DNA of 30,272 nucleotides, from positions 1 through 30,272 of the IMG/VR virus record IMGVR_UViG_3300043313_001173; one strand, 5' to 3'. This document shows positions 4,747 to 10,184 of the stretch, one piece after another. This stretch comes from a virus. Numbering within the stretch: the stretch's first letter is position 1; every line of letters starts with the position of its first letter. The notes under the pieces are model-generated. The model was not told the origin of the DNA and made no database searches. It saw only the letters and a list, made by a program, of their open reading frames with translations. A program made the position numbers and the translations under genes.

Positions 4747-5037
4747 ATGGCAGACAAAAAGGTCGAAGCCTTCACCGACGAGGAAGCACAAGCGGCCGGG
4801 TTCTTCGGGACCTCGGCAGATCCGGTCGATCACAGTCTGCAAGCGCAGGCGGCGATCGAGCACGATGTGGCACCGGGCGAAGTGGACGGAGCAGTCCGTG
4901 ATCCCGAGGCCGATCGGAGCAAGGATCTGATCAAGATGCCGAAGCCGCTCAATCCGAAGGCGACGCCTCCGAAGACGGCAGCCAAAAAGGCGACCGCCAA
5001 GAAGGCGACGGCTAGGAAGGCTAAGGCGAAGAAATGA
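4747..5037 (+). CDS. Small head-module protein with Lys/Ala-rich tail
   Basis: A 96-residue protein. The first 70 residues are acidic and soluble with no known domain: an AAGFFGTSADPVDHSL stretch then an Asp/Glu-rich region. The last 25 residues are made of AKK-type repeats like the tail of histone H1 or of bacterial HU/Lsr2-like proteins, which suggests nucleic-acid or negative-surface binding. Its stop overlaps the next start in an ATGA. Location in the head module makes a virion or assembly role likely, but the function is unknown. Confidence 0.6.
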   Translation: MADKKVEAFTDEEAQAAGFFGTSADPVDHSLQAQAAIEHDVAPGEVDGAVRDPEADRSKDLIKMPKPLNPKATPPKTAAKKATAKKATARKAKAKK

Positions 5038-5609
5038 CGCTGCTGGCCACCGTTGACGATCTCAACGTGCTGGCAGATACCAGCTTCGGGGAGGCGGATA
5101 CACGACCGGTCCGTCTCCTCGAACTGGCGTCAGGTCTCGTCCAAGCGGAGGCACAGCAGCACTTCGCGCTCGTTGAAGACGAGGAGGTCGTGCTGCGTGT
5201 CGAGGGCGAGGTCTACTTGCCCGAGCGGCCGGTGATCGACGTCACGTCGGTCATTCTGTCGACGGACGGATCGGTGGGGAGCTTGACGGCCGGGTTTACG
5301 TTCCATCCGGACGGTGAGCTGCTGCCGGGTTTGTTCATGGACTCGTCAGACGTCTTTTGGCCTCACCAGGCGACGATGACGGTGATCTACTCGCACGGAT
5401 ACGCCGTGATCCCGGACGACGTCAAGGCGGTCGTTTGCGCGATCGTCCAGCGTTGGCTCGCCAATCCGGGGCGTCCGGTGGAGGCCGGGTTCGACGATGA
5501 CGTGTCTGCGTCGAGTGGCGACGTGGCGTTCGCGAAGGTCGATCGAGAACTCATTCGCAGGCGGTACCGGCGGACGATCCGGACGGTGCCGATCAGGAGT
5601 GCAAGGTAG
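5034..5609 (+). CDS. Head-tail adaptor (connector)
   Basis: A 191-residue protein with the layout of HK97 gp6/SPP1 gp15-type adaptors: an N-terminal helical region beginning TLLATVDDLNVLADT, a long helix with LLELASGLVQAEAQQHF, a beta insertion (VYLPERPVIDVTSVIL), the VIYSHGYAVIPDDVKAVVC segment that is typical of the family, and a basic C-terminal tail. It forms the ring docked under the portal. It starts inside the stop of the upstream gene (ATGA), implying translational coupling. Confidence 0.85.
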   Translation: MTLLATVDDLNVLADTSFGEADTRPVRLLELASGLVQAEAQQHFALVEDEEVVLRVEGEVYLPERPVIDVTSVILSTDGSVGSLTAGFTFHPDGELLPGLFMDSSDVFWPHQATMTVIYSHGYAVIPDDVKAVVCAIVQRWLANPGRPVEAGFDDDVSASSGDVAFAKVDRELIRRRYRRTIRTVPIRSAR

Positions 5610-5617
5610 GAGGTTCG

Positions 5618-6193
5618 ATGCAGACGATCTCGGAAGCCCGACTGCTCGATCAGGCCGTCGCCCAAGCGCACGCGATGCGCGACGAGCACGATGGGCTGAC
5701 GATGGTCGGCTACGGCTACTGGCAGTTGTTCGATGAGCATGGCCACCTCAAGGACGGCGCACCATTCGCCAACCTCATCACGCAGGTGGGCGATCAGTTC
5801 TACGGCGACCGGGCGGCAGCCATCGGCTCGATCGCCGTCGTGACCGGCATGCGCCTCGGCACAGGCGGAGCGACGGCGGTTGCCAAGACCGGCGCAGGCG
5901 CGGCGATCGTCACGTACGTTACCGCGTCGCAGATCGCGATCGCGGGCGGATTCCCGACGACAGCGCTGAACGGTTCGTCTCGGCGCATTCAGTGGAAGTC
6001 GACCTGGGGCGCGGGCGTGGCGACGGCCAACGGCATCAACGAGTGGGTGATCACGAACGAGACTCCGATCACCAACGTCGCAGGCACGGCGGCAAACACG
6101 ATCAGCCGAGCCGTCGACACCGGCTCACCCGTCAACAAGGCGGCAGGCGATACGCTTGACATCGTCTGGAACCACGACCTGCTAGGCGCTTAG
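5618..6193 (+). CDS. Putative virion structural protein
   Basis: A 191-residue protein. The N-terminal 50 residues are helical and polar. The centre has the segment AIGSIAVVTGMRLGTGGATAVAKTGAGAA, followed by beta-rich sequence with RRIQWKSTWGAGVATANGINEWVI and alternating Thr/Val/Ala strands. This looks like a beta-sandwich of the sort used in head fibres or neck appendages. I do not recognise a named family. The start at ATG 5618 follows an AGGAGG at 5608-5613 that overlaps the end of the adaptor gene. It is the last gene before the first four-box element. Confidence 0.6.
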   Translation: MQTISEARLLDQAVAQAHAMRDEHDGLTMVGYGYWQLFDEHGHLKDGAPFANLITQVGDQFYGDRAAAIGSIAVVTGMRLGTGGATAVAKTGAGAAIVTYVTASQIAIAGGFPTTALNGSSRRIQWKSTWGAGVATANGINEWVITNETPITNVAGTAANTISRAVDTGSPVNKAAGDTLDIVWNHDLLGA

Positions 6194-6200
6194 AAAGCTT

Positions 6201-6292
6201 TGTCACGGGAGCCCTCCGGTGACACGCGGACGACGCCGGAATATAAGAGCGCCGGAGAGTCGCTCCCGTGTCACCGGAGCCCGCGCGTGACA
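6201..6292. repeat. Four-box palindromic element, copy 1
   Basis: TGTCAC at 6201-6206, GTGACA at 6219-6224, TGTCAC at 6269-6274 and GTGACA at 6287-6292. The offsets are 18, 50 and 18 bp. As single-strand structure, boxes 2 and 3 lie in a perfect 13 bp inverted repeat (6214-6226 with 6267-6279) and boxes 1 and 4 in a 7 bp one. Boxes 1 and 2 can alternatively fold as a local hairpin with 9 of 10 pairs. It begins 7 bases after the upstream stop codon and has no recognisable promoter downstream. Confidence 0.75.
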
Positions 6293-6321
6293 GAGACGAT
6301 GGGTACGACGAGGAGGACGGC

Positions 6322-6582
6322 ATGGCGAAGAGCAAGGGTTTCACCGTCGAGGACGACGGGGAGTACATTCACCTCACCGGCAACGCGCCGGAGGGAGCGC
6401 ACGTCGTGGTCGAGGTGGCCGCGCCCGAGGGGACGATCGTTTACGATCAGGGCACGCTCTCGGACGGGGTGCTGGACCTCAAGTTCCCGACAGTGCCGGT
6501 AGGCGAGAGCCTGCTCCGGATCGTGACCGTGCCGAACGACCCAGCAGAGGCACGGACGGTCCTGCACTCGGGGCTGCTATGA
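6322..6582 (+). CDS. Small beta-rich protein of unknown function
   Basis: The 86-residue product has a beta-strand pattern (EYIHLTGNAPEGAHVVVEV, then GTIVYDQGTL and ESLLRIVTV) that resembles an immunoglobulin-like or bacterial surface beta-sandwich. I chose ATG 6322 because AGGAGG at 6311-6316 is ideally placed. An ATG at 6268 in frame would run through the last part of the four-box element and is unlikely. The stop overlaps the start of the secreted protein downstream, so the two are probably made together. The function is unknown. Confidence 0.6.
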   Translation: MAKSKGFTVEDDGEYIHLTGNAPEGAHVVVEVAAPEGTIVYDQGTLSDGVLDLKFPTVPVGESLLRIVTVPNDPAEARTVLHSGLL

Positions 6583-7316
6583 GGAGGGCTGCGTTCGTTC
6601 TCGCCCTGATCCTCGTCTCGCTGGTCGCGGGCGCGCCTCAAGCGCAGGCAGCGCCATCGGCGATCTTCACGGCGTCGAGCACCGGCCAGCGCGGGCACAT
6701 CGATCCGATCGTCGCTCCCGGCGTCAGATCCGCGCATGAGCACTGCTTCTACGGTGCCGTAGGCGTCGCTGAAACCGAGACCTCGGCAGATCTTCGATCG
6801 AAGCCGACGACATGGGTCGAGCAGGGGAACCATACCGGCATCTGGATTCCGTGCCTGTACGAAAATGGCACGCTCGTCCAACCCGCCACGACGAAGCACC
6901 TGCTGGCCTACTACAAGCCGGTGTCGTGCGTCGAGCAGGTTCCGCCGGAGAACACGGCCGGAGTCACCCATGAGTACGGCTACCGCAACACGATCGGCGG
7001 AGGTGCGTTCTCGCTGACGCCTCCGGCATCGTCCAGCAGCGGCTATCTCGTGGTCACGCTGTTTTGGCGCGCGGATCGAGATCTGCCCGGAGCCGGTTGC
7101 TTCCCGACCGTCCAGGCATACATCCGGCTCGCGATCGGGACGGGTCCGATCGGAAACATCACGCTAGGCGGACCGGTCAACGGCGTCGATGGCGCGCTGG
7201 GTCCGACGACGATGCACGGCGACTACTTCTGGGCGTGGGATCGCGACGTTTTCGAGCGGTTCCTGGCCAACTGTGTTCGAGTCAACAAGGCTTGCGGCAC
7301 GAACCCGGCGGTGTAG
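6579..7316 (+). CDS. Secreted protein with DUF1996-like domain
   Basis: A 245-residue protein with a clear signal peptide: RR, then a hydrophobic LALILVSLVAGA core and an AQA-A cleavage-type site near residue 25. The mature part carries SAHEHCFYGA early and MHGDYFWAWDRD followed by FERFLANCVR late. These match the spaced His/aromatic features I know from DUF1996 proteins, a family found in fungi and actinobacteria and of unknown biochemical function. Several cysteines fit an exported, disulphide-bonded protein. An exported protein inside a head-tail operon is unexpected. It may be a cell-surface modifier carried as a moron. The exact family is an inference from motifs. Confidence 0.6.
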   Translation: MRRAAFVLALILVSLVAGAPQAQAAPSAIFTASSTGQRGHIDPIVAPGVRSAHEHCFYGAVGVAETETSADLRSKPTTWVEQGNHTGIWIPCLYENGTLVQPATTKHLLAYYKPVSCVEQVPPENTAGVTHEYGYRNTIGGGAFSLTPPASSSSGYLVVTLFWRADRDLPGAGCFPTVQAYIRLAIGTGPIGNITLGGPVNGVDGALGPTTMHGDYFWAWDRDVFERFLANCVRVNKACGTNPAV

Positions 7317-7318
7317 CC

Positions 7319-8134
7319 GTGCCTCTGTGGCTGCCCGCGCACTATCCCGAGGAAGTCGAGCACGCTGCAGATGCCGGTATCACGCTGACGGGCGGCGCTG
7401 TCGACGTCAAAGGAACGTGGACGGCGCTTATCACATCAACCGTTCGGGACGCGTACGGGATCTGGCTGCAGGCGAACGGGCTGAGCATCACGGCGACCGC
7501 CACGCCTGGCCTCGTGGATATCGGGGTCGGACCCACCACGCCGGAGATCATCGTACCGGACTGGAACGTCGGGTACTGCTTCACGGCGGGAGCGGCGGCT
7601 CCGATCCTGCCGAAAATGCAGTTCTTCCCGTGCTTCATTCCAGCGGGAACCAAAGTGTGGGCGCGATTCGCTGGGCTGTCTGCCGACACGGTCATCATTT
7701 ACGCGGCGCTGGAAGAGGCTCCGCCGTTTGGCGGCGTGTCGCCTGGCGACATCAAGGCGTACGGCGTTGTGGTCTCCGGTTCGAAAGGCACGAACGTCAC
7801 ACCGGGCGCGGCGGCGTGGGGGACAGCCGTGCAACTGTCGGCGTCTACGACGAAGGAACATCGGTACTGGGCGGTGGGCCTCGGCGGAGCGGCGGATGCC
7901 ACGCTTCTAAACCACTTGCGGACAATCCACTGTCGACTCGCGATGGACTCGGCTGGAACGGCTCCGTTCGGCAACTGGGTATTCGACACGGAGACGACTA
8001 CGGAGATCATCGGCGGTCCGTTCCCGCCGTACCCTGTTTACCAGCCGGTGCCAGCGGGGAGCACGCTGTACTGTCAGCTGAACGCCGACGTGGCGACCGA
8101 TCTGTTCGACGTGATTGCGTACGGGATGGGGTGA
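7319..8134 (+). CDS. Putative virion protein, beta-rich
   Basis: The open frame extends further upstream, but GTG at 7319, two bases after the preceding stop, is the sensible start and gives 271 residues. The protein begins PLWLPAHYPEEVEHAADAG and then alternates short strands rich in Thr, Val, Gly and Ala, with two similar halves each ending near a hydrophobic strand (VIIYAALEEAP and LFDVIAYGMG). This suggests a two-domain jelly-roll or sandwich appendage. No enzyme motif is seen. The position suggests a head-tail appendage, but the family is unknown. Confidence 0.55.
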   Translation: MPLWLPAHYPEEVEHAADAGITLTGGAVDVKGTWTALITSTVRDAYGIWLQANGLSITATATPGLVDIGVGPTTPEIIVPDWNVGYCFTAGAAAPILPKMQFFPCFIPAGTKVWARFAGLSADTVIIYAALEEAPPFGGVSPGDIKAYGVVVSGSKGTNVTPGAAAWGTAVQLSASTTKEHRYWAVGLGGAADATLLNHLRTIHCRLAMDSAGTAPFGNWVFDTETTTEIIGGPFPPYPVYQPVPAGSTLYCQLNADVATDLFDVIAYGMG

Positions 8135-8138
8135 GCAA

Positions 8139-8468
8139 ATGGCAATCGCAGAGGAGGCGACCGGGACTTGGACCTCGTCCGGTACGACGGAGGCAGATCT
8201 TGCAGCCGCGTCCGCCGTCGACGGCGTGTTTCAGCTGGTGGTCGATGTGAACGACATGATCCTAGCCGACAAGCTTGAGATCCGCGCTTACGAGATGGCG
8301 ATCGGCGGAGGCACGACACGTCAGATCATGTGCTGGCCGCTGCAGCACGCGCAGGTCGACAAGATCTGGGTCTCACCGGCCATGGTTTTCATGAACGGCT
8401 GGAAGTTCACCCTCAAGGCGACTGCGGGCGGCATCGTCTGCCCGTGGTCGATTAGGAAGCTGACTTGA
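8139..8468 (+). CDS. Small virion-type protein
   Basis: A 109-residue protein from ATG 8139, preceded by a purine-rich GGGATGGGGTGAG. It has a Ser/Thr-rich beginning, a beta pattern in the middle (GVFQLVVDVNDMILADKLEIRAYEMA) and an aromatic C-terminal half with MVFMNGWKFTLKAT. Proteins of this size and pattern recur among phage structural genes, but no function is known to me. Its TGA overlaps the TTG start of the repeat protein. Confidence 0.55.
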   Translation: MAIAEEATGTWTSSGTTEADLAAASAVDGVFQLVVDVNDMILADKLEIRAYEMAIGGGTTRQIMCWPLQHAQVDKIWVSPAMVFMNGWKFTLKATAGGIVCPWSIRKLT

Positions 8469-9547
8469 ACTTCTACTATCCGCCGTTCATACCAGGAACG
8501 AGCAGCACGGCGTGGTCAAAGACCGTTGTCGACGCGATCGGCGGGCTCGACGCTGCCACCAGGGCAACAGCCAAAGCACAGACGGACGCGCTCGGCGGAC
8601 TCGACTCAAGATCTCGCAACACGGTGCGCACGCTGACGGAAGCGCTCGGACTCCTGGATTCCGTCACGCATACGCTGTTCACGCTGTACACCAAGACCGT
8701 CACCGATCCGCTCGGACTGCTCGATCCGGTGTCGCGCCAGTACGGCAAGAACCCGACCGACGCGCTGGGACTGCTCGACACGGCCGTGCGTGCAGGCGCG
8801 ATCGTACGCTCGCCGCTCGATCCGCTCGGGATCTTGGACTCGCGCAGCAAGGGCGTCGCCAAGAGCGTCGTCGATATCGTCGGGCTTCTAGATTCTGTCA
8901 GCAAGGCGGGCGGCAAGACGATCGTCGACCCACTCGGGCTTTTAGATTCTCGCAACAAGCAGACCGTAAAGAATTTGACGGACACAATGGGTATGCTGGA
9001 CTCCCGGCTGCGCACGTTTGGCAAGAATTACGCGGACGCAATGGGTATCCTCGACAGCGCCTCCCGATTGTACGCGGCGCTGCGCACGATCGTCGATCCC
9101 GAGGGTTTGGTGGACAACGCCGTGCACTCCGGAGCGGGCGCGCAGTCCAAGACCGTGACCGACGTGTTGGGGCTGCTCGACCCCGTCGCAAGATCTGCGG
9201 GCTGGGTCCGCACGCGGATCGATCCGGTTGGGCTCTCCGATGCCGTCTCCCGTGTCACGGGAGCGCTCCGGACGCGCGTGGACGCTCTCGGGGCATCAGA
9301 CGGCGTCGTGCGTGTCGTGAGTTACGGGAGAGCTTCGTCTGACAGCCTGGGGTTGCTTGACGGAGTGGCGGTCTTTTGGGTCGCCCCAGCCGTGCCCTCG
9401 ACGATCCTGGGTCCGTTCATCGTGTGGTACGCGCGCACGTCGCCCACGGCGAGAACGACGGCGAGCGATCCGTCTGTATTGACACCTGCCAATCCTCACG
9501 GTACTAGCAGCGATATGAACCCACGTGGTACGATGGAGCCAGCATGA
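8465..9547 (+). CDS. Fibre-like protein with 15 short repeats
   Basis: A 360-residue protein. Residues 18 to about 302 consist of 15 repeats around a core G-L-L-D motif, most often written D-x-L-G-L-L-D-S/P-x-S-R. From one core glycine to the next the step is 18, 20 or 22 residues and never odd. That is what a beta structure with alternating in/out side chains would allow, such as a solenoid or intertwined spiral. The C-terminal 60 residues are different: hydrophobic, then Ser/Pro/Thr-rich. The TTG start overlaps the upstream stop and the end overlaps the next gene by ATGA. It is probably an elongated virion appendage. The function is inferred. Confidence 0.6.
   Translation: MNFYYPPFIPGTSSTAWSKTVVDAIGGLDAATRATAKAQTDALGGLDSRSRNTVRTLTEALGLLDSVTHTLFTLYTKTVTDPLGLLDPVSRQYGKNPTDALGLLDTAVRAGAIVRSPLDPLGILDSRSKGVAKSVVDIVGLLDSVSKAGGKTIVDPLGLLDSRNKQTVKNLTDTMGMLDSRLRTFGKNYADAMGILDSASRLYAALRTIVDPEGLVDNAVHSGAGAQSKTVTDVLGLLDPVARSAGWVRTRIDPVGLSDAVSRVTGALRTRVDALGASDGVVRVVSYGRASSDSLGLLDGVAVFWVAPAVPSTILGPFIVWYARTSPTARTTASDPSVLTPANPHGTSSDMNPRGTMEPA
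8516..9369 (+). repeat. Tandem coding repeats, 15 copies of 54-66 bp
   Basis: The repeats encode the GLLD-type motifs of the fibre-like protein. Unit lengths are 54, 60 or 66 bases. DNA identity between units is patchy and the protein core is better kept, so this is an old, selected repeat and not a recent slippage array. Confidence 0.85.
9479..9507 (+). promoter_or_regulatory. Weak candidate promoter before the baseplate-like gene
   Basis: ATTGACA as in the early promoters (TTGACA at 9479-9484), a 17 bp spacer ending CACGG, and TACTAG at 9502-9507. The -10 lacks the final T. It lies in the 3' end of the repeat gene, about 37 bases before ATG 9544, which has a GGAG ribosome site. Confidence 0.25.
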
Positions 9548-9891
9548 GCACGCTTTCCATGGTCCACGGGGACACGGCCGAGTTCGATTCGGTCATTGCC
9601 AATGCTGCCGGACCGATCAACCTGACAGGGGCGACGGTCCGCTTCACGGCAAAGGCGTCGTACGAAGATCTCGACGCTGCCGCCATCGTCAACATCGTGT
9701 CGCCGACCGACATCACGATCGTCAACGCGGCAGCCGGAATGGTTCACATCCGCATTCCTCCGGCTGCGACGTCGGCGATCCCAAACGTGCTGCGCCGACT
9801 GGCGTTCGATTTGAGCGTGACCAAGGGCGCGGACAAGTGGACCGTCGACTCGGGCCAGCTGATCATCAACCCGGAAGTGGCGATAGCATGA
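9544..9891 (+). CDS. BppU N-terminal-like beta-sandwich protein
   Basis: A 115-residue protein with the order GDTAEFD, GPINLTGATVRFTAK, IVSPTDITI and GMVHIRIPP, then a strand ending DSGQLIINPEV. This is the Ig-like pattern of the N-terminal domain of phage baseplate upper proteins (BppU_N type), which normally anchors receptor-binding machinery. Here it stands alone next to the repeat protein and the neck genes, so it may attach the repeat protein to the virion. Both its start and its end overlap its neighbours in ATGA junctions. Confidence 0.6.
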   Translation: MSTLSMVHGDTAEFDSVIANAAGPINLTGATVRFTAKASYEDLDAAAIVNIVSPTDITIVNAAAGMVHIRIPPAATSAIPNVLRRLAFDLSVTKGADKWTVDSGQLIINPEVAIA

Positions 9892-10184
9892 CGTTCATCA
9901 TCAATCCGCTCGGGATCGCCGCGCTCGCCCGATCTGAGGCCATGCAGCTGATCGTCAAAGATCGCGCCGAGGACGTCGCCGACAAGCTGCGCGACATCGC
10001 GCCCTACGATCCGGAGCAGAACGATCCCCACTATCGTGACTCGATCGAAGTGGTCGTCGAGGAGGAAGACGGCACGGCCGTCGCAAAGGTCGTAGTCGGC
10101 GTGCCGTGGGCGCTTGAGGTCGAGTTCGGCACGCAGAATATGGCACCGCAGGCTCCGATGCGGAGGGCGACCGATGCCAGCTGA
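9888..10184 (+). CDS. Neck/tail-completion protein, HK97 gp10-like
   Basis: A 98-residue protein with the family signature: a helix with VADKLRDIAPYDP, then HYRDSIEVVVEEEDG, a beta hairpin, and the close WALEVEFGTQNMAPQAPMRRA. HK97 gp10-like proteins sit at the head-tail joint or complete the tail end. It starts in an ATGA overlap and its end overlaps the tail terminator gene by 11 bases. Confidence 0.8.
   Translation: MTFIINPLGIAALARSEAMQLIVKDRAEDVADKLRDIAPYDPEQNDPHYRDSIEVVVEEEDGTAVAKVVVGVPWALEVEFGTQNMAPQAPMRRATDAS

Follow-up and report, generated by a model that had tools for sequence, protein, structure and literature searches.

The stretch of DNA analyzed here, which we call the window, comprises 30,272 nucleotides of the record of an uncultured tailed phage. 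Its structural genes begin with TerL, portal, scaffold, major head protein, two unnamed genes and a head-tail adaptor, and continue with a phrog_5417 gene, an unnamed gene, a DUF1996 gene, two more unnamed genes and a gene encoding a protein built of short repeats, after which come a gene for a 115-residue protein, Neck1, the major tail protein, a chaperone and the tape measure. An accessory block bounded by the head-tail adaptor and Neck1 contains the repeat gene; the relevant features are as follows:

5034..5609, + strand: head-tail adaptor, the upper border of the accessory block (phrog_442, E 2.8e-21)
5618..6193, + strand: phrog_5417 protein; the homologue at locus L008 (8145-8678) is 68.5% identical over 143 residues
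8115..8468, + strand: gene for a 117-residue protein, overlapping the repeat gene by 4 bases; no family match in Pfam or PHROGs
8454..8459, + strand: AGGAAG, by eye the likely ribosome-binding site for the TTG start
8465..9547, + strand: repeat protein of 15 units with steps of 18, 20 or 22 residues (from the translation, a motif count and family profile A2)
8465..8518, + strand: 18-residue N-terminal lead ahead of the first core, read from the translation
8519..9373, + strand: array in which 15 pseudo-palindromic cores are joined by 3-, 5- or 7-residue linkers
9374..9544, + strand: 57-residue C-terminal tail rich in Pro, Thr and Ser, with empty domain searches (Pfam, PHROGs)
9544..9891, + strand: putative p132/BppU_N-like collar protein of 115 residues (phrog_1084, E 5.2e-12)
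9888..10184, + strand: Neck1 or tail-completion protein (phrog_387 neck protein, E 1.6e-5; phrog_5, E 2.9e-5)

The repeat gene is an open frame of 360 codons for amino acids starting with TTG (8465-9547, +). Its start shares the four bases TTGA with the stop of 8115-8468, its end shares ATGA with 9544-9891, and the latter in turn overlaps 9888-10184 by another four-base ATGA; on the opposite strand of the same stretch stops are present in the one frame that was translated. The AGGAAG before the start, together with the overlaps with both neighbours, indicates that this frame is a real gene. Elsewhere in the neck block, a 245-residue protein (6579-7316, +) matches Pfam DUF1996 above the cut-off (E 2.7e-8), and its start resembles a signal peptide by eye.

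The path from the portal to the major tail protein is 7.9 kb in the window, as against 3.2-4.6 kb in five portal relatives whose tail protein could be located; in a sixth this distance is 7.7 kb and is filled with other genes. In keeping with an accessory nature of the repeat gene, an array follows the portal in none of 34 portal relatives, including 14 with at least 7.7 kb of sequence past the portal, a count that covers the stretch after the portal and leaves room for arrays elsewhere in those genomes. One portal relative carries an ORF that by eye looks glycosyltransferase-like between its head and adaptor genes (L225:8011-9411).

A sequence-only reading of the window had described 15 core motifs, most often LGLLD, separated by 14 steps, all of them even. 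Our recount gave 15 cores, with exact LGLLD as the commonest form, though in just 6 of the 15, and recomputed steps of 18, 18, 22, 18, 20, 18, 18, 18, 18, 20, 22, 20, 20 and 20 residues, identical to those reported. Searched with the motif G[LMIA][LVSMD]D, the protein yields 13 hits, whereas 10,000 shuffled versions of it averaged 0.31 and never exceeded 4. The mean identity of the 15-residue cores is 45%, and tandem copies at the DNA level are limited to a single 54-base pair with 77% matches, which together mark the array as diverged. Recent DNA slippage as its origin was rejected on the same finding.

For the repeat ORF neither the PDB nor Pfam, at its cut-off, gave a match, and PHROGs gave none up to E 0.1, phrog_12240 included. 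Two matches below the Pfam cut-off, to VirD1 (E 0.003) and SecD_1st, were dismissed as chance. No lead came from tblastn of the repeat protein against phages, from its back-translated peptides against viral contigs, from 7 kb of window DNA against phages or from the L008 repeat protein against phages. Relatives were found on scanning viral contigs with a degenerate DNA pattern in which three cores were set apart by gaps of any 39-51 bases (18, 19, 20, 21 or 22 residues in frame). Candidates with a low-complexity share of at most 0.5 numbered 103 ORFs, others (marked LC) being left out; 40 of them were removed, 9 as exact duplicates and the rest, among them an ORF of the Methanosarcina virus MetMV, on failing a filter for steps, acidic positions and 'GV' content. 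The resulting repeat family has 63 ORFs in 59 sequences, window included, with 1202 units; its ORFs are related and so not independent, and the near-duplicates L184 and L194 were kept in. A profile, A2, made from 26 sequences of eight 20-residue units, the window not among them, matches the window ORF with E 5.1e-29 at 8915-9367 and in two further stretches, and BLAST aligns the window protein with the L008 protein at 33% identity (E 5e-18). Both L008 and the window combine a repeat gene with a phrog_5417 gene. A match of A2 to a CFA/I fimbrial protein (E 0.012) was rejected as chance.

The domain scans covered the 62 other family ORFs, the window ORF being scanned separately. Among these relatives 24 match phrog_12240, a family of unknown function (best E 5e-27), with the match in L008 spanning its repeats, yet the window ORF falls short of it. 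The NCBIfam 'serine-rich protein' model NF033849 matches 16 of the 62, which we take as a probable effect of composition. Among the families listed in the Pfam and NCBIfam scans of the relatives, none names the repeat. One virus has two adjoining genes that both carry the repeat (L029:3237-5732 and 5645-6787), in the second of them behind a glycine-rich region. A search of open papers for the string LGLTD found none, and the portions of PMC4010524 and PMC7164591 consulted hold no mention of the repeat that we could find. In our literature searches of open papers the repeat, its palindromic core and its length changes by paired residues appear to be undescribed; the kind of system to which we assign it, an appendage of fibre and collar, is already known.

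Step lengths across the family, counted between 16 and 26 residues, are even in 990 of 1076 cases and odd in 86. Steps of 20 dominate (778), followed by 18 (155), 21 (59), 22 (49) and 19 (17), with 23 (6), 24 (6), 25 (4) and 26 (2) being rarer. No odd step at all occurs in 35 of the 63 ORFs, and 21 is the commonest step in three (L033, L036 and L117). Measured against the commonest step of each ORF, there are 156 changes by two residues and 44 by one; non-modal steps are present in 51 ORFs, in which even deviations prevail 35 times and odd ones 13 times, with 3 ties. The even share of deviations is 165/222, with a bootstrap range of 0.645-0.831 tested over ORFs. Without the filter, all 103 candidates give 1475 even versus 90 odd steps, a tally in which many rows are spurious. 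The count of 990 in 1076 makes evenness a strong preference of the repeat family and not a law, so that the claim of an always even unit holds for the window (14 of 14 steps) and has to be softened for its relatives.

The anatomy of the unit bears on this preference. From -7 to +7 round the glycine the core reads R-T-[VI]-[AT]-D-S-L-G-L-T-D-S-[VLA]-[TS]-R, a 15-residue pseudo-palindrome centred on that glycine. Of 488 units, 456 carry an acidic residue (D/E) at -3 and 485 carry one at +3; L/G/L is nearly fixed, and length variation is confined to the linker of 3, 5 or 7 residues. In the core of 20-residue units large hydrophobics take up 45% of the odd versus 14% of the even positions, and in their linker 54% versus 44%. 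Such alternation, being strong in the core and near-absent in the linker, is a property of the core. The earlier proposal that two-residue insertions preserve the in/out alternation of a strand is thus half supported: the core alternates, but the linker, where the length actually varies, hardly does so. Pairwise insertion may reflect one extra residue on each side of a turn.

The fold of these units was approached with AF2. The model of the window protein, from 26 sequences, contains strands only (pLDDT 52, pTM 0.41), and that of eight units of L195, from an ungapped 26-row alignment, is almost all strand (pLDDT 61, pTM 0.53); the five AF2 models differ widely in confidence. Compared with the PDB both models resemble beta-solenoids, the best VIA-align result being Z 12.1 with an rmsd of 5.2 over 279 residues for the window model at its pLDDT of 52, and Z 15.2 with an rmsd of 2.7 over 160 for the L195 model at its pLDDT of 61. 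Foldseek with the L195 model yielded no PDB match below E 0.05, and a single BFVD hit below 0.001, whose TM-score was 0.22. AF2 is reported to turn repeats, including ones of 20 residues, into unrealistic beta-solenoids (PMC11795689). That bias and the widely differing confidence of the models mean that solenoid-like models are not proof of a solenoid. With low confidence, the models suggest that the repeat protein is all-beta and solenoid-like. For the elongated beta structure foreseen from the sequence, both models are all-beta and free of helix, which speaks in its favour, and the low pLDDT values and the AF2 bias temper it. A helical fold was rejected on the two helix-free models and the period-2 pattern of the core.

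The same low confidence raises the alternative that the repeats form a pliable linker with little or no order, a floppy tether whose beta-solenoid models are an AF2 artefact, as the wide spread in confidence of the five models and the behaviour described in PMC11795689 would allow. We regard this as unlikely. The near-invariance of the acidic positions at -3 and +3 and of L/G/L, the strict i/i+2 pattern of the core and the constancy of the unit length all speak for a defined fold. The paper, moreover, deals with perfect repeats, whereas the units of the window have diverged.

Among known beta folds, the RTX beta-roll has units close to 18 residues long, with aspartates conserved at its turns. 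The window repeat shares with it both this unit length and the conserved aspartates, but differs in lacking, by eye, the GGxGxDxUx sequence, and no RTX or hemolysin calcium-binding family appears in its Pfam results.

The product of the gene immediately downstream was expected to be BppU-like, and this was borne out weakly. Beyond phrog_1084, the 115-residue protein matches phrog_3304, 'L-shaped tail fiber protein assembly', over residues 12-113 (E 1.9e-4) and the T5 p132 structure (PDB 7qg9) over residues 15-80 (E 0.027), while its BppU_N (PF10651) score of 13.1 bits (E 0.08) is below the Pfam cut-off of 23.1 bits. A profile of ten small neighbours (A7) found no collar protein in the PDB, and the gene at the equivalent position in L008 has no detectable relation to the 115-residue protein.

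Two phage systems offer a comparison. In T5, a dodecamer of p132 forms a collar near the tail tip that holds three grafted L-shaped fibres, each probably by some 50 residues at its N-terminus, and the p132 fold is linked to the N-terminus of BppU (PMC10038345). Like p132, the 115-residue protein would be a small free-standing protein of the Ig/BppU fold, judged by its sequence matches, encoded by a gene apart from that of the fibre. Unlike T5, with its collar at the tail tip, the window has its pair among the neck genes, and its putative fibre, unlike T5 pb1, is an array of short repeats with no sequence relation to any PDB chain. By analogy with the roughly 50 N-terminal residues of pb1, the 18-residue lead of the repeat protein is a possible anchor. 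In TP901-1, the neck passage protein has an N-terminus like ORF48/BppU (PMC4493119), and a model places a ring of these N-termini on the adaptor (PMC10747895). The window would resemble that system in pairing a putative BppU-type anchor with a long accessory protein at the neck. The neck passage protein is one chain with a BppU-like N-terminus and a C-terminal carbohydrate module, whereas the putative anchor and rod are separate genes in the window, and Pfam and PHROGs found in the 360-residue ORF neither a BppU-like N-terminal domain nor a carbohydrate-binding C-terminus.

The surroundings of the relatives broaden this picture. In the 62 repeat ORFs Pfam recognizes Laminin_G_3 (6), Gly_rich_2 (3), BNR (2) and Collar, Sialidase and Phage-tail_3 (1 each), and PHROGs 'virion structural protein' (3) and central tail fiber J (1); in the window ORF the same two collections find no adhesin domain. 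Neighbouring genes were taken with a crude ORF picker, so some are probably in the wrong frame; 131 downstream and 92 upstream picks were reduced to 118 and 78 rows on omitting repeated places and some others, the window's downstream pick being replaced by 9544-9891 and its upstream pick omitted. Downstream (n=118) we found phrog_5417 in 11 rows, the head-tail adaptor phrog_442 in 8, phrog_5 Neck1 in 6, and phrog_783 connector, phrog_1084 and BppU_N at E <=0.01 in 3 each; upstream (n=78) phrog_5417 in 13, tail-fibre J in 2 and tape measures in several. The phrog_5417 family, whose function is unknown, is the one that most often adjoins repeat genes, on either side. These neighbour families indicate that the repeats occur both in connector clusters and in tail clusters. 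The connector-gene surroundings, along with the adhesin and tail domains of the relatives, agree with the suggestion of a virion appendage made from the sequence.

Where such an appendage attaches is a separate matter, since lying among connector genes does not reveal where the product is fixed. The tail-fibre J genes (2 of 78) and tape measures upstream mean that a neck location is not general, and with the repeat ORF that itself contains J and the T5 collar near the tail tip (PMC10038345) they speak for a fibre of the same kind that is fixed to the tip of the tail or to its tube. Set against this are the connector genes adjoining the window's repeat gene and those downstream of its relatives (phrog_442, phrog_5 and phrog_783); we give attachment at the tip or tube roughly one chance in four as a reading of the whole, and consider the odds of a neck location to be about even. 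As the repeat gene also lies downstream of the major head protein, it might encode a head decoration or minor capsid protein. This is very improbable: the adaptor intervenes, Neck1 then follows, and Pfam and PHROGs give no match to a decoration-protein family.

The repeat also extends beyond tailed-virus contigs. Searches of genomes with profile A2 at E 1e-8 were positive in 1 of 296, 15 of 151, 2 of 201, 0 of 195 and 0 of 149, and in 0 of 6 further genomes at E 1e-6; the positive controls, virus records only, were found in 8 of 8 cases. The 15 of 151 are Thermoproteota, the phylum of a Nitrosopumilus record, and have long repeat ORFs of roughly 870 to 5,200 residues with 20-residue units, e.g. 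SVSDSVSITDSVSTSGNKIK (loci L203-L208). These ORFs are possible giant surface proteins. A scan of genome contigs with the DNA pattern gave 30 stretches, none a convincing member and many resembling collagen-like genes in another frame; the later recovery of members in genomes by the profile shows that scan to be insensitive. MetMV, a virus that PMC7164591 describes as discovered by metagenomics, is the only named virus matched, weakly (ORF AZF89921, E 3e-4). The giant Thermoproteota ORFs and AZF89921 share with the window family units of about 20 residues of the form D-x-h-G/S-h-x-D, and differ from it in that serine commonly replaces glycine and that the giant archaeal ORFs are cellular. Common descent of the archaeal and viral repeats is not proven by these sequence comparisons, in which composition may inflate the scores.

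The long Thermoproteota ORFs lend some colour to the notion that the window protein is a secreted or cell-surface infection protein, taken from surface proteins of the host that share the repeat, and no part of the virion. It shows no obvious signal peptide by eye, its gene is tightly coupled to structural genes and relatives are fused to phage tail domains, and we hold this origin to be improbable.

We consider it reasonably probable that the repeat protein forms the rod in an accessory appendage of the virion, with a p132/BppU-like collar holding it. The analysis shows the repeats and their family, the preferred spacing, the coupling of the genes, the connector surroundings, the adhesin domains of relatives and a weak p132/BppU match; its place in the virion, docking to the collar, rod shape, oligomeric state and binding to the host are what we infer. 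On this proposal a ring of the 115-residue protein would sit on the neck or tube and receive the N-terminal lead of the repeat protein, much as the p132 collar of T5 receives the L-shaped fibre. Stacked or extended, the 15 units would make up an all-beta rod whose length determines how far the fibre reaches, while the C-terminal tail would bind the host surface or carry another protein that does. The linker mostly changes by two probably because one residue per arm of the turn keeps the units in register. Much more tentatively, the viral rods on p132/BppU-like collars and the giant archaeal surface proteins could share a metal-clamped beta shaft. In such a shaft the pseudo-palindromic core would present R-V-D-L-G-L-D-V-R, mostly spaced by single residues, and the near-invariant aspartates flanking the central glycine would stack between units and be neutralized by calcium or arginine, length being tuned by adding pairs of linker residues and the rod of the appendage being exchangeable.

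How a tailed virus meets its host is decided by its appendages of fibre and collar, many of which lack annotation because no Pfam model covers the short repeats of their shafts. With a defined repeat and a rule for its spacing, such proteins can be found in uncultured viruses, and the window offers a testable pair of rod and collar. That giant archaeal ORFs match as well suggests a building unit common to surfaces; if archaea do use the same shaft, fibres of viruses and of cell surfaces would have one building unit in common.
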